Shown one piece after another: positions 53,881 through 58,252 of a stretch of 64,000 bases of DNA. The notes under the pieces were generated by a model. It was not told the DNA's origin, did no database searches, and saw nothing but the letters and a program-made list of their open reading frames with translations. Numbering within the stretch: position 1 is the stretch's first letter; each line of letters opens with the position of its first letter. The position numbers and the translations under genes are program-made. This stretch comes from Candidatus Melainabacteria bacterium (GTDB lineage: Bacteria; Cyanobacteriota; Vampirovibrionia; Obscuribacterales; Obscuribacteraceae): NCBI GenBank assembly GCA_003242885.1, contig QKMZ01000004.1, positions 124,001 through 188,000 on the forward strand, read 5' to 3'.

Positions 53881-53914
53881 GTTTTGATGGTTGAAGGTTT
53901 GGAAATTTGAACAA

Positions 53915-55360
53915 ATGACTGCGACTGAAAACAGAAAGCCGAAACTCGGATTTAAGCAACTTGCGGAAAAGCTCAGACAAGACATTGAGACAAACAAGCT
54001 TTCCTACGGCGCACCACTGCCTCCCAGCCGCAGCATGGCGGAACAGTTAGGTGTATCACGAGACACCGTAGTCAGCGCATACAACGTCTTAGAAAATCAA
54101 GGATACATCGAGTCTGACGGCAGACGAGGCACCTTCGTCAGTTTCAAATCAGATTTGAAACTACCAAGAACTTCAACCGAATCAGAGCTATTAAGCCTTT
54201 CGAAGATCGGGAAATCACTGCTTTCTCACACGAAGGTACAACGGACTGCATCACCTAATCCTGATGAACTAACCTCTTTCAATTTCGGTGCTGTTCCACG
54301 TGAAGCGCTGCCACTGCGGCAATGGCGAGAACTGCTTCTCAAACGCGTTCAGTCAACCAAGAATCTCAGTCTCGAATACACGCCGAACGTTTTTGGGCGG
54401 GAAGAATTCCGCGATGCTCTAGCACAATACCTCGCACACACCAAAGGTATACGCGCTCAGAAAGAAGAAATTGCAGTCTTCAACATCTCAATTACAGCCG
54501 TCGACATACTGCTGACTCTGCTGATGGAAAGCGGCGATTGCATCGCAATAGAAGATCCTGGTTATCCTGCGATTGAGCAACTAGCCCACAAACATCAACT
54601 ATCCATCGCCACATTGCCGGTCGATGATAAGGGCGCTCAGGTGGAGTTTCTCGCTGCGCTAAACCCTAAACCAAAGCTCATATACGTGACGCCGGATAGC
54701 CACGATCCAACGGGTACAACGCTGTCTCTTAATCGGCGACTTGAACTTCTTGCTTGGGCGAATGCAAACAATGCGTGGATTATTGAAGACGCTTTTGACG
54801 GTTTCTTTCGATATGGAGAAGCCGCACCGCCAGCATTGAAAGCACTCGATACAGAAGGAAGAGTCCTGTATTTATCAACGTTTTGGCAAGTTCTTTATCC
54901 ACTAGCTACAACCAGTTATCTCTTGATGCCACCAAATATTGCAACTGTTTTCCGCGCCGCAAAAGCACTTACGGATGGCATTGCCGAAACGATGCCACAA
55001 TTGATTCTCGCCGACATGCTTAAGTCTGGCTTTCTAAATGGGCATACGCGAAGGTGGAATAAAATATTTGCCGCGAGAAGACGAACGCTGATTTTCAATT
55101 TGACGCAAAAATTCGGCAAGGATGTAAATGTTCTTCCGTTCTCCGCAGGCTTGCACTGCGTGATTGAATTAGAAAATTTCCCGCCAGAACTTGTGATGAG
55201 AGCAGCTAAAGCTGCGAAACTGCCTCTTCAAGAAATCCATTCTCGTTTTCATTCAACGAAGCAACACCGATACATTTGCTATTTCGCGGGTTTGAATGAA
55301 TCAACAATTGAGAGTTGCGTGATGATATTTGCAGAACTTGCCTACAACACATCAACGTAG
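53915..55360 (+). CDS. MocR/GabR-type regulator with altered PLP site
   Basis: A 481-residue GntR-family regulator. The winged-helix domain (QLAEKLRQDIETNKLSYGAPLP, PSRSMAEQLGVSRDTVVSAYNVLENQGYI) is joined to a fold-type I aminotransferase domain. In this family the PLP lysine lies in a GTFSK-like motif; here the sequence reads LSTFWQVLYP, with Gln 325 (codon CAA at 54887) in its place. The EDDYD motif reads EDAFD, so the Asp is kept and the Tyr is Phe. The Schiff base therefore cannot form as in GabR. ATG 53915 is preferred to TTG 53891. It is divergent from a membrane operon. Confidence 0.88.
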   Translation: MTATENRKPKLGFKQLAEKLRQDIETNKLSYGAPLPPSRSMAEQLGVSRDTVVSAYNVLENQGYIESDGRRGTFVSFKSDLKLPRTSTESELLSLSKIGKSLLSHTKVQRTASPNPDELTSFNFGAVPREALPLRQWRELLLKRVQSTKNLSLEYTPNVFGREEFRDALAQYLAHTKGIRAQKEEIAVFNISITAVDILLTLLMESGDCIAIEDPGYPAIEQLAHKHQLSIATLPVDDKGAQVEFLAALNPKPKLIYVTPDSHDPTGTTLSLNRRLELLAWANANNAWIIEDAFDGFFRYGEAAPPALKALDTEGRVLYLSTFWQVLYPLATTSYLLMPPNIATVFRAAKALTDGIAETMPQLILADMLKSGFLNGHTRRWNKIFAARRRTLIFNLTQKFGKDVNVLPFSAGLHCVIELENFPPELVMRAAKAAKLPLQEIHSRFHSTKQHRYICYFAGLNESTIESCVMIFAELAYNTST

Positions 55361-55462
55361 TTCCATCGCTTCAATGTACTTACATGCTCCTAATTGCGCT
55401 TCGACGCTGAGTGATGGCTTTTCTTCAAAACCACAACCTATACTACTTTGTATCGTATGTGC

Positions 55463-55517
55463 TCAAAAAAGCAAGAGCGACCAAAATCCAGGTTTTAAAA
55501 CCCGTGAGATTGGTCGC
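55463..55517 (-). terminator. terminator of the microprotein operon
   Basis: On the minus strand GCGACCAA (55517-55510) and TTGGTCGC (55484-55477) enclose a GGGTTTTAAAACC sub-hairpin and are followed by TCTTGCTTTTTTG. A second hairpin, GGCTAAC/GTTAGCC, lies at 55526-55543. Confidence 0.8.
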
Positions 55518-55552
55518 CCCGCTCAGGCTAACGCCAGGTTAGCCGGTTGCTG

Positions 55553-55621
55553 TTAACGCTTGTTGTTGAACAGCATGACGACGCACACGACGGCGACGCC
55601 AATGAGAAGCCACGTAAGCAT
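55553..55621 (-). CDS. 22-residue membrane microprotein
   Basis: The frame encodes MLTWLLIGVAVVCVVMLF followed by NNKR, a single transmembrane helix with almost no flanking sequence. AAGGAG lies 9 nt before the ATG in GAGCAAAGCCATG. It is a tandem paralogue of the gene at 55715-55780, with a similar leader. Both lie downstream of a three-helix membrane protein gene. Function unknown. Confidence 0.65.
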   Translation of the reverse strand: MLTWLLIGVAVVCVVMLFNNKR

Positions 55622-55714
55622 GGCTTTGCTCCTTGAACTCGTGGTTGATTGCAACAACAGTTCGGTCTAAGACGACCTGAGGCTCGACACTTTCCGCGTT
55701 AGCTCGATGAGCGA

Positions 55715-55780
55715 TTAGCGGTTGGTGAACATCATGGCGACGGCAACCAGCAGGATGCCGACGATAATCCACGTAAACAT
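55715..55780 (-). CDS. 21-residue membrane microprotein (tandem paralogue)
   Basis: The frame encodes MFTWIIVGILLVAVAMMF followed by TNR, aligning without gaps to the downstream copy (M-x-T-W-x-x-x-G pattern, Asn-Lys/Arg end). CTGGAG precedes the ATG in GAGCAAATCCATG, as in the second copy. The two copies differ at many codons but keep a hydrophobic helix and start context, which argues for real translation. Confidence 0.65.
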   Translation of the reverse strand: MFTWIIVGILLVAVAMMFTNR

Positions 55781-55831
55781 GGATTTGCTCCAGAACTAGA
55801 GGTTGTTTGCAGCAACACTGATGCTCCGACT

Positions 55832-56119
55832 TTAGAGCTCGACTTGATCTCCCGAGGGAAGCGAGAGTCTAAAGTAGACGACGCTAATGAATCCAATCAC
55901 GCCGGTCATGACTGCAACGAATGGGTCGGGTACGAGCGTGTACCAAGCCCAAGCGTGAATAGCAGCCAGACCAAAAACCGTGATGTATTCGACGATGCCC
56001 TTCATGGGAAAGCGACTGAACGACGCAGCCCAGAAGAACAACGCTTGAAATAGCAAGCCGGTGAGTGCGGAGCCGAGAACAAACGCAAGCAGGTACAGAA
56101 GTGCCAGAAACTGAAGCAT
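55832..56119 (-). CDS. three-helix small membrane protein
   Basis: A 95-residue protein with hydrophobic segments LQFLALLYLLAFVLGSALTG, IVEYITVFGLAAIHAWAWYTL and FVAVMTGVIGFISVVYFRL. AAAGGAG is 7 nt before the ATG. It lies 51 nt upstream of the two microprotein genes on the same strand and is probably cotranscribed with them. Function unknown. Confidence 0.7.
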   Translation of the reverse strand: MLQFLALLYLLAFVLGSALTGLLFQALFFWAASFSRFPMKGIVEYITVFGLAAIHAWAWYTLVPDPFVAVMTGVIGFISVVYFRLSLPSGDQVEL

Positions 56120-56236
56120 AGTTAGCTCCTTTCACCAGCTGACAGCAGCGGATTTGTTCGCCGTAGAAGAGCGGCACAAGCCCCTCTACGGGTTATCGCA
56201 AAAGCGAATTACCTAGCGAACAACCGCGCCGGCGCC

Positions 56237-56458
56237 TTACTTCTTCTTCTTCTTGCAGCAGTCCTTGGGGTCGGTCTTGTCGTGGTCGGCGCAGGTGCCG
56301 GACTTCTTCGAGCCCTTGCAGCCGCAGCCTTCCTTTTCACCGTCCTTCTTGGTGCCGTCCTTCGTCTTCATCTTCTCGATGGCCTGACGGTCCTGCTCGC
56401 GAGCCCACTGATCTTCAGCAGCCTTGCCGCGATCGCCGAGGGGGGATTTGTTGGACAT
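56237..56458 (-). CDS. small Lys/Cys-rich hypothetical protein
   Basis: A 73-residue protein. It begins MSNKSPLGDRGKAAEDQWAR, and its N-terminal helix (GDRGKAAEDQWAREQDRQAI) is reminiscent of IF1/zeta-type ATPase inhibitors and similar short proteins. The C-terminal half is rich in Lys with five cysteines (EGCGCKGSKKSGTC, KDCCKKKKK), which could bind metal. AAAGGA is about 7 nt before the ATG. It may be the first gene of the small-membrane-protein run below it. Confidence 0.65.
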   Translation of the reverse strand: MSNKSPLGDRGKAAEDQWAREQDRQAIEKMKTKDGTKKDGEKEGCGCKGSKKSGTCADHDKTDPKDCCKKKKK

Positions 56459-56951
56459 AGGGAGTTCCTTTCGTTTCGATTTTCAGATTGTTCTTTCACA
56501 CGCACATCTACACTCACACTTCGCTCAACGAACCGACCGACAGCCGAAATTCATTTCCAAAACCAAAACGTATCTCTACTTCAAAGACACTGTGCGCGTC
56601 TAAGAAGCAAAAACTCTCGGTAAAGCGAGATTAGGTTTTGATTTTGATGAGGAAGTTGGAGGAGAAAGAAATACGAGTGAAACGTGATTACTCTACGAAT
56701 AAAGGCCTGTAGATACGCGCGTGTAATGCAAACTTTTGCAACTGCGCATCACGCAACACTCGTTCACGATCCAGCGAAACCTCAAACAACCACACCTTTG
56801 GCAACCCACCCTCCTTCTCGTTATCGCTCGCGTAGCCGCACAACCACTTGGCAGCAATGTGTGTTTTTCTTGCTTCACGCTTTCACCATCGTCGTGAAAA
56901 ACCGCTCAGAATGTACGATATGAAAGGATCGATCAGGACGTTCTAAACTAA
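56459..56951. other. intergenic region, no gene recognised
   Basis: About 490 bp between diverging genes. No open frame, hairpin or promoter here is convincing. Confidence 0.4.
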
Positions 56952-57137
56952 ATGCTCGAAGAACACTTCTTCACTTGTCCTTATTGCTGGGAAGAAATAT
57001 CAATGTTGCTCGACCTCAGCTCAGGAGGGCAGGAATATGTGGAAGACTGCGAAGTCTGCTGCAATCCTATTTCCATCTCCTATCAAGCCGAAGACGGCTC
57101 TATCACCTCATTCTCAGCCGAACCACTTCAGCAATAA
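56952..57137 (+). CDS. CPXCG-type cysteine-rich protein
   Basis: A 61-residue protein with two zinc-ribbon knuckles, CPYC (residues 9-12) and CEVCC (residues about 33-37), and the pattern EEISMLLDLSSGGQEYVEDC typical of the CPXCG-motif family. Members are small cytoplasmic proteins of unknown role. No strong Shine-Dalgarno sequence is visible. Confidence 0.85.
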   Translation: MLEEHFFTCPYCWEEISMLLDLSSGGQEYVEDCEVCCNPISISYQAEDGSITSFSAEPLQQ

Positions 57138-57184: not shown

Positions 57185-58252
57185 ATGATCAAACTTACCA
57201 TCAACAATGTGCCGACTCTTTTCATCAAGGCTTTCACGCCTGAAGATGTAGAGACAATCATTGGTTTCGTTCGCGATGCTTTCAAGTTTCACTCATCAAG
57301 CAGCAACACTATCCTCTTTATCGATACACCAATCACAAACGCAACAGTCGAAGCTGTGGAGCGGTTGACGGATGAAGGATTTGACGTAGTCTTTCGCGAC
57401 CATCACGGCATTGATGGCGAACCAACCAACGACCGTGAAGCGCGGGTGGTCAAAGCAACGCACAAGCTAAGACAAATGCTTGGCGATAATTGCACGATTA
57501 CGGTTCGCAGATTGCATCCTGCTTGCAGCACATTAGTAAAGGCAGGAGAGTTTGCCGGTGCTGTTGCCATCATTGCCGACCCTGATGCAGACGGACTAAC
57601 AGCAGCAATGAAAGCGGCAGGGATCACTTACGAAGGGCTAGACGAAGACGCCGCAAAACTTGACGGTGAGCCACAATTGCAAGTTACAGGCACGCCGATC
57701 AGTCAGCTTTTGGCGAAGGGAATAGCCGTAATTCCATCATATGATGCAACAAAGCCAAAAGACAGAGAGATCGCTCATCAAAAACTTTTCTCGGACTGGC
57801 TTAAAGCCGTAGAAGGAAATGAAGCCGCGCGAAACAGACTCGAGGAGCAGGTTGAAAACTACGATCAAGCAGTGATAGTTTCGCACGAACTTGTAAAATC
57901 CGCTGTAATGGTTACACCAGGGGTGGTGCTGGTTGACGTTTCCAACAAACCTCTATTCGATCCGGGCACACTTAACGCACTGCTTGAAACCGAGACCACA
58001 TGCCAGATTACAGTCATTCGCAAAGACCTCGGGCCGATTGCAGCCGTGCACGGAATTCAATACAGTCTGGCCGTCGCCAAGTCATATCAAAATCAGATCA
58101 ATTTGCATGAGCTGGTTCCAAAAGACGCAAAATCAAGCCCAGAAGTCGGCATCATCTCTAACGTTTCGTTTCTCTTGCACACATCTGAAGAAGTTTGGAA
58201 AACAGAAGTTCTTCCCCGGCTTAAAGCGGGTAAATGCGTTGCAAGTATTTAA
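57185..58252 (+). CDS. DHH-like phosphoesterase superfamily protein with unusual motif order
   Basis: A 355-residue protein. It has VVFRDHHGID (residues about 69-78), RRLHPACSTLVKAGEFAGAVAII, and ADPDADGLTAAMKAAGI (about 131-147). Both DHH and DxDxDG elements of DHH phosphoesterases are present, but here DHH comes before the DPDADG motif; in NrnA/RecJ-like enzymes the D-D motif is first. The C-terminal part (QITVIRKDLGPIAAVHGIQYSLAVAKSYQNQINL) is unassigned. No clear binding site precedes the ATG. The gene ends 4 nt inside the convergent receiver-domain gene. Confidence 0.65.
   Translation: MIKLTINNVPTLFIKAFTPEDVETIIGFVRDAFKFHSSSSNTILFIDTPITNATVEAVERLTDEGFDVVFRDHHGIDGEPTNDREARVVKATHKLRQMLGDNCTITVRRLHPACSTLVKAGEFAGAVAIIADPDADGLTAAMKAAGITYEGLDEDAAKLDGEPQLQVTGTPISQLLAKGIAVIPSYDATKPKDREIAHQKLFSDWLKAVEGNEAARNRLEEQVENYDQAVIVSHELVKSAVMVTPGVVLVDVSNKPLFDPGTLNALLETETTCQITVIRKDLGPIAAVHGIQYSLAVAKSYQNQINLHELVPKDAKSSPEVGIISNVSFLLHTSEEVWKTEVLPRLKAGKCVASI

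Follow-up and report, generated by a model that had tools for sequence, protein, structure and literature searches.

Tandem membrane microORFs with a repeated leader and a predicted start-codon hairpin beside a three-helix protein gene in a Candidatus Melainabacteria bacterium

Several Escherichia coli membrane proteins, among them AcrZ, CydX, KdpF, and MgtS, are shorter than 50 amino acids and have one helix, and CydX and KdpF are encoded beside their partners. Type I toxins (TisB, Ibs, Ldr, ZorO, DinQ, and AapA, as well as MsoT1) are likewise short hydrophobic peptides with a basic end, and tandem copies are known for Ldr and Ibs. Genes as short as these are usually overlooked by automatic annotation. 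AcrZ is described as binding AcrB (PMC7267776), and the 27-aa E. coli protein YohP is described as a membrane microprotein (PMC12719787) of a size similar to those analyzed here. We analyzed two microORFs, µ1 and µ2, that resemble AcrZ, CydX, KdpF, and MgtS in being shorter than 50 amino acids with one helix but differ from them in being only 21 and 22 amino acids long, in standing in tandem, in each having a leader and a predicted start-codon hairpin of its own, and in lying next to a gene for a three-helix protein outside the known families. They also differ from YohP, whose description in the cited part of PMC12719787 includes no tandem copy or neighboring membrane gene.

The microORFs lie in a 64,000-nucleotide stretch of DNA (the window) on contig 4 of a 6.73-Mb genome from a non-photosynthetic cyanobacterial relative, and the same locus is present in isolates SJ878 and SJ512 and in Cyanobacteria bacterium DS2.3.42. 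All parts of the locus are carried by the minus strand, in the transcription order 73-aa gene, hairpin, three-helix gene, µ1, µ2, and terminator. The upstream gene (56237-56458) encodes a Lys/Asp/Cys-rich protein of 73 aa and is followed by a hairpin at approximately 56162-56192, recognized in a four-genome alignment, that has no T-run after it. Next come the gene for the three-helix membrane protein (95 aa, 55832-56119, helices predicted), µ1 (55715-55780, 21 aa, MFTWIIVGILLVAVAMMFTNR), which begins 51 nt downstream of it, and µ2 (55553-55621, 22 aa, MLTWLLIGVAVVCVVMLFNNKR). The unit ends at approximately 55473-55525 in a terminator, a long hairpin closed by GGCGACCAA/UUGGUCGC and followed by a T-rich stretch (fold z -5.3), whose outer stem is conserved in four genomes. 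The 73-aa gene is probably on the same transcript as the three-helix gene, µ1, and µ2; a stricter promoter scan, which is an insensitive one, found no promoter for the transcription unit itself.

The coordinates, the translations, and a filter scan agree with the proposal of the earlier note on this DNA that two tandem membrane microproteins of 21 and 22 residues are encoded beside a three-helix protein. The filter, whose thresholds were set after the peptides had been seen, selected ORFs of 15-40 aa with an ATG start, GGAG, AGGA, or GAGG 5-15 nt upstream, and a 15-residue hydropathy of at least 2.2; µ1 and µ2 were its only matches on both strands of the whole 64-kb window. When the 351-nt region was subjected to 3000 dinucleotide-preserving shuffles, at least one match arose in 1 of them and two matches in none. 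The good ribosome sites and shared start context that had been noted were read at both frames, as GGAGCAAATCC-ATG and GGAGCAAAGCC-ATG. Each microORF has the attributes of a gene for a small single-pass membrane protein, namely a short ORF with a start codon and ribosome site, one membrane helix, and conservation in relatives.

µ1 and µ2 belong among the small membrane proteins in the wide sense and fall outside every named family tested. In searches of Pfam, NCBIfam, PHROGs, and PADLOC, neither the microORFs nor the three-helix protein had a match above threshold, and in Pfam and NCBIfam the microORFs showed no sequence relation to AcrZ, CydX, KdpF, or MgtS. The models of short proteins (FeoB-associated, YtzI, PhrA, LPxTATN, and others) stayed below their curated cut-offs (11.7/27, 9.2/33, 14.2/40, and 14.1/32 bits), and Rfam had no match in the DNA from 55300 to 56700 at E values up to 1. 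A published small-protein catalogue predicted frames from 30 nt up and could hold the two peptides (PMC11364881). Our literature search found no paper on this locus, a result from which we do not claim its absence from print.

Relatives of the locus were sought in the eight genomes of the genus, in the family, and in the class. The three-helix gene is present in four of the eight genus genomes, counting the window's own (G000), and the proteins of the other three (G003, which is isolate SJ878, G006, and G007) are 79-84% identical to the window copy. A class-wide profile search of 289 genomes gave five matches to the three-helix profile, these four and one at E 0.009; the fifth contains two stops and was rejected as a chance match. 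With a microprotein HMM, the eight genus genomes yielded six strong matches (E 4e-13 to 7e-11), each at the locus of the three-helix gene, and the next match was at E 0.42. All four genomes that carry the three-helix gene contain µ2, and two of them contain µ1: G003 has both microORFs, as the window does, whereas G006 and G007 have a single µ2-type copy directly behind the three-helix gene. The genus genomes that lack the three-helix gene have no microORF. Their absence is uninformative, because in three of these four genomes the site coincides with contig ends or a broken neighborhood (contigs end near it in G002 and G005, and in G001 the neighborhood is rearranged, with the contig end falling at the 73-aa gene), and the flanking gene could not be located in G004.

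Outside the four loci, the searches returned nothing convincing. The window's own genome holds no paralogues elsewhere, the only two further HMM matches having E values of 4 and 9, and a search of that genome for the leader gave two matches, both at this locus (reversed-pattern control, 0). A family-wide microORF search gave E values of 0.0024 or worse beyond the six copies, with the best match (G119) inside a 449-residue open frame. The 2 kb downstream of relatives of the 73-aa gene in 10 family genomes contained no microORF pair (in G001 the gene is cut off by the contig end), and plasmids, phages, and viral contigs contained no relative of the three-helix protein.

The earlier note had named missing conservation of the frames, or changes that disrupt them, as outcomes that would speak against the microproteins; both were looked for in the relatives and neither was found. 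The frames are conserved (µ2 in four of four genomes, µ1 in two of four), their starts and stops are intact, and changes in length are whole codons. In all six ORFs the start, the stop, a Trp, a Phe, and a basic C-terminus are kept. The µ1 peptides of the window and G003 are identical at 20 of 21 residues, so the duplication is older than the split of these two genomes. Judged by the three-helix gene, no two genomes are closer than G003 and G006 (pS 0.31, compared with 0.44-0.56 for the others), which implies a loss of µ1 in G006 at the least and, unless the branching order differs, in G007 too. In both genomes the sequence before the single copy follows that of the µ1 position while the frame is that of µ2, as would be expected from recombination between the two leaders. 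This history is drawn from pairwise comparison. Being missing in two of the four genomes, µ1 is dispensable.

The substitutions between copies show how far the protein itself has been kept. The µ1 orthologues differ by five base changes, which cause one amino acid change (pN 0.031 versus pS 0.25); four of the five fall at third positions, the bias that had been suggested as a check. The µ2 orthologues have a pN of 0.14-0.24 versus a pS of 0.28-0.53, the identical G003/G006 pair excepted, and for the µ1/µ2 paralogues pN (0.27) is close to pS (0.33). In a null model that placed the observed substitutions at random (20,000 trials for each of five comparisons, which are not independent of one another), a protein similarity as good as or better than the real one arose by chance in 0.03% of trials for the µ1 pair, in 0.95, 0.43, and 5.0% for the µ2 pairs, and in 1.2% for the paralogues. 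Hydropathy was kept better than chance in four of the five comparisons.

The two microORFs are each preceded by a conserved leader. That of µ1 (55778-55815, minus) comprises the element TTGCTGCAAACAAC and a GGAG ribosome site and runs to the ATG, and that of µ2 (55619-55657, minus) has the same arrangement with the element TTGTTGCAATCAAC; both were delimited by pattern search and alignment. An alignment of the six copies shows what they have in common: TTGYTGCAANCAAC, a short spacer with AGTY, GGAG, and ATG. In 50 family genomes the pattern of TTGYTGCAANCAAC, gap, GGAG, gap, and ATG occurred only at the six copies, and the reversed pattern did not occur. The earlier note had stressed that the copies diverged in nucleotides and kept their protein pattern. 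The second part holds, but it is in the leader, which precedes the ORF and is more conserved than it, that the copies resemble one another most, so that the protein is not alone in being kept.

The start codon of each copy is predicted to lie in a hairpin, in which nucleotides preceding the ATG are paired to the Trp codon and the codon after it, and the A of the AUG is enclosed. For µ1 this hairpin is AAUCCAUG-UUUA-CGUGGAUU (55766-55785, minus; -8.6 kcal/mol for the local 25 nt), and for µ2 it is AAGCCAUG-CUUA-CGUGGCUU (55607-55626, minus; -10.3 kcal/mol for the local 25 nt). The AUG can be closed in this way in all six copies, with 6-9 predicted pairs and -4.8 to -10.3 kcal/mol for 25 nt. In a control set of 83 ordinary genes (ORFs chosen mechanically that have an ATG, a ribosome site, and 100 aa or more), a stem of at least six pairs was found in three and -6 kcal/mol was reached in three. 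When the hairpins are aligned, 35 of 36 cells pair, compared with 18-48% when the partner strand is slid by 1-3 columns. One pair is compensated: the two µ1 copies have U-A where the four µ2 copies have G-C. Three further pairs vary on one side. The covariation thus rests on one double change, and 27 of 500 shuffles reached the same score. For the 66-nt segment of G006, the minimum-energy fold is one other than the start hairpin. From these comparisons, the start hairpin is a prediction with comparative support and is probably real. The duplicated unit consists of the leader, the start hairpin, and the microORF together, and this linkage of a conserved leader and predicted start hairpin to each microORF, duplicated as one, is what is new here.

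A model of the leader and hairpin also had matches beyond the six copies. The best three (E 0.005, 0.006, and 0.012) do not precede a short hydrophobic frame, one in G007 lies inside a kinase-like gene on the opposite strand, and the remaining ones have E values of 0.15 to 1. A switch in which the leader would pair with the 3' arm of the hairpin was considered and dropped, since a complement was seen, by eye, only for µ2 of G000.

These properties bear on a reading in which the RNA element, that is, the leader and start hairpin and perhaps a processing or binding site, is what has been conserved, with the frames incidental or translated only to regulate the transcript. The higher conservation of the leader would suit it, as would a second observation: µ2 of G003 and G006 is identical over 63 coding nt, the stop codon apart, despite a pS of 0.31 in the adjacent three-helix gene and differences in the leaders just upstream, which hints at constraint on the bases. 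A hand estimate of the probability of this identity, (1-0.31)^13.7, is ∼0.007, for one pair picked from six; the identity may reflect RNA constraint, gene conversion, or chance. When the codons of the start hairpin were left out of the null model, the result weakened to 1.1, 4.2, 2.9, 13.9, and 1.1% for the five comparisons in the order given above. Protein similarity nevertheless persists past the hairpin, at 1-4% in four of the five comparisons and 14% in one, and because of this residual similarity the frames look as if selection of moderate strength had acted on them, beyond what the RNA fold alone would bring about. In addition, no copy differs in length by anything other than whole codons, and the C-terminus, encoded ∼40 nt from the hairpin, has stayed basic. 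We therefore regard conservation of the RNA element alone as very improbable. The inference of the earlier note that the kept protein pattern reflects selection is accordingly supported at moderate strength by pN below pS and by the null model, with the reservation that the conservation of codons 1-5 can be explained in part by the RNA hairpin. We consider µ1 and µ2 to be real genes with a high degree of confidence, and they very probably make membrane peptides of 21 and 22 residues.

Codon usage was compared with 14 ribosomal-cluster ORFs as the reference and 37 window ORFs as the background. The CAI was 0.80 for µ1, 0.77 for µ2, 0.64 for the three-helix gene, and 0.88 for the 73-aa gene, against a window mean of 0.63. 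Relative to the same peptide written in window codons, the adaptation had P 0.0002 for the 73-aa gene, a marginal P 0.047 for µ1, and P 0.18 for µ2, for which codon adaptation alone is weak evidence. A strong start hairpin is odd beside codons typical of well expressed genes.

The main rival to a role beside the three-helix protein is that µ1 and µ2 are type I toxin-like peptides that depolarize the membrane and are silenced by mRNA structure and an antisense RNA, like small hydrophobic toxins that other bacteria carry in tandem or in multiple copies. Their small size, single hydrophobic helix, and basic C-terminus would fit such toxins, and so would the tandem duplication together with the leader. 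The predicted placing of the start codon in a hairpin has a parallel in type I toxin mRNAs, which are described as staying silent through hairpins at the ribosome site (PMC6733600), a structure that in µ1 and µ2 is a prediction only. A candidate type I system has also been reported in Microcystis (PMC12390103), although its toxin MsoT1, as given there, is 63 aa long with two predicted helices. The locus departs from type I systems in several respects, however. In a crude and insensitive scan of the four genomes, no antisense promoter kept its position from one genome to the next (G000 and G003 each had one weak candidate, at differing positions, and G006 and G007 had none). The ORFs stand at the end of an operon-like unit, the genome has no other copies, and the codons are ribosomal-like. 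A toxin function is a possibility that we consider rather unlikely.

An AlphaFold2 model of the three-helix protein, built from 4 sequences, has three helices (mean pLDDT 74.9, pTM 0.44), and its best match in a fold comparison with the PDB (E 1.7) was of no use. In G006 and G007 the 73-aa gene adjoins the three-helix gene, and in G003 it is split over two contigs. Relatives of its protein occur in several further genera of the family. The N-terminus is conserved (NPLGxRGKAEEDxWAREQDxxAIEKMK) and the tail variable, often rich in Lys or Cys, and the gene has the strongest codon adaptation seen, above that of the ribosomal genes tested. Contigs break inside this gene in two relatives (G003:C2/C286 and G001:C150), and the Cys/Lys-rich tail of G003 has repeated units; internal repeats seem to make the gene variable, and it may disturb assembly. 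An IF1-type ATPase inhibitor was considered for the 73-aa protein because of a similarity seen by eye. The only PDB match of the family profile was mitochondrial IF1 (E 1.6), whose inhibitory helix the conserved N-terminal segment resembles; Pfam IATP (PF04568) had no match in the genome at E values up to 10, and this identity is therefore not claimed.

Other features near the locus were recorded in passing. The hairpin at 56162-56192 (minus) is kept in the four genomes with letters changed yet still able to pair (the pairs of the relatives judged by eye) and, having no T-run, is perhaps an mRNA stabilizer or processing site. On the plus strand, the convergent neighbor at 53891-55360 is a MocR-like GntR/aminotransferase regulator (PdxR, 336 bits versus a cut-off of 320). 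At 57185-58252 (plus) lies a gene for a 355-aa protein with a weak DHH-type match (20.1 bits versus 28.1) that occurs in seven of the eight genus genomes, and it is adjoined by a gene for a CPXCG Cys-rich protein (56952-57137).

The reading that we prefer is that µ1 and µ2 are translated single-pass inner-membrane microproteins under start-hairpin gating that assist the three-helix protein, a proposal that we hold with about even confidence. They would be the last cistrons of a small unit made up of the 73-aa protein, the hairpin, the three-helix protein, µ1, µ2, and the terminator. The whole unit of leader, hairpin, and microORF would have been duplicated before the species split, with µ1 later lost in two. 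The start hairpin would hold translation low until it was opened by some factor or condition that acts on the leader (an RNA, a protein, or a ribosome coming from the preceding cistron). The peptide would then insert in the membrane, with N-out/C-in as the probable orientation given that the peptide is charged only at its basic C-terminal residues, and may be an accessory or modulating subunit packed against the three-helix protein. We infer this partnership from the constant neighborhood of µ2 and the three-helix gene, which is seen in four of four genomes, the only four with the gene.

The same neighborhood bears on whether µ1 and µ2 could instead tune the membrane without a fixed partner, as abundant or stress-induced microproteins like YohP. 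Their length and hydrophobicity would agree with this, and helix residues that are loosely conserved while hydropathy is kept would suit a lipid-facing role. Strict co-occurrence with the three-helix gene (four of four, and none without it) would be unexpected, however, although four genomes are few, and we judge a partner-free function to be unlikely. A bolder reading, which we put forward as doubtful speculation, is that the cassette of leader, hairpin, and peptide is a genus-specific translational switch, in which a trans-acting RNA or protein would bind the TTGYTGCAANCAAC element and open the AUG hairpin, and a burst of peptide would gate the co-encoded three-helix protein or shut off membrane energy; the peptide might then be a type I toxin-like brake that has no relation to known families.

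As microproteins, µ1 and µ2 are ordinary in kind, and it is the repeated leader and start hairpin that add interest. Their example calls for caution with microprotein calls that are based on conservation only, as RNA structure can supply part of a microORF's apparent protein conservation. The repeated leader and start hairpin make translational gating of microproteins concretely and cheaply testable. If translated, µ1 and µ2 would be very short genes with comparative support, from an almost unstudied uncultured group and with no family in the libraries searched.
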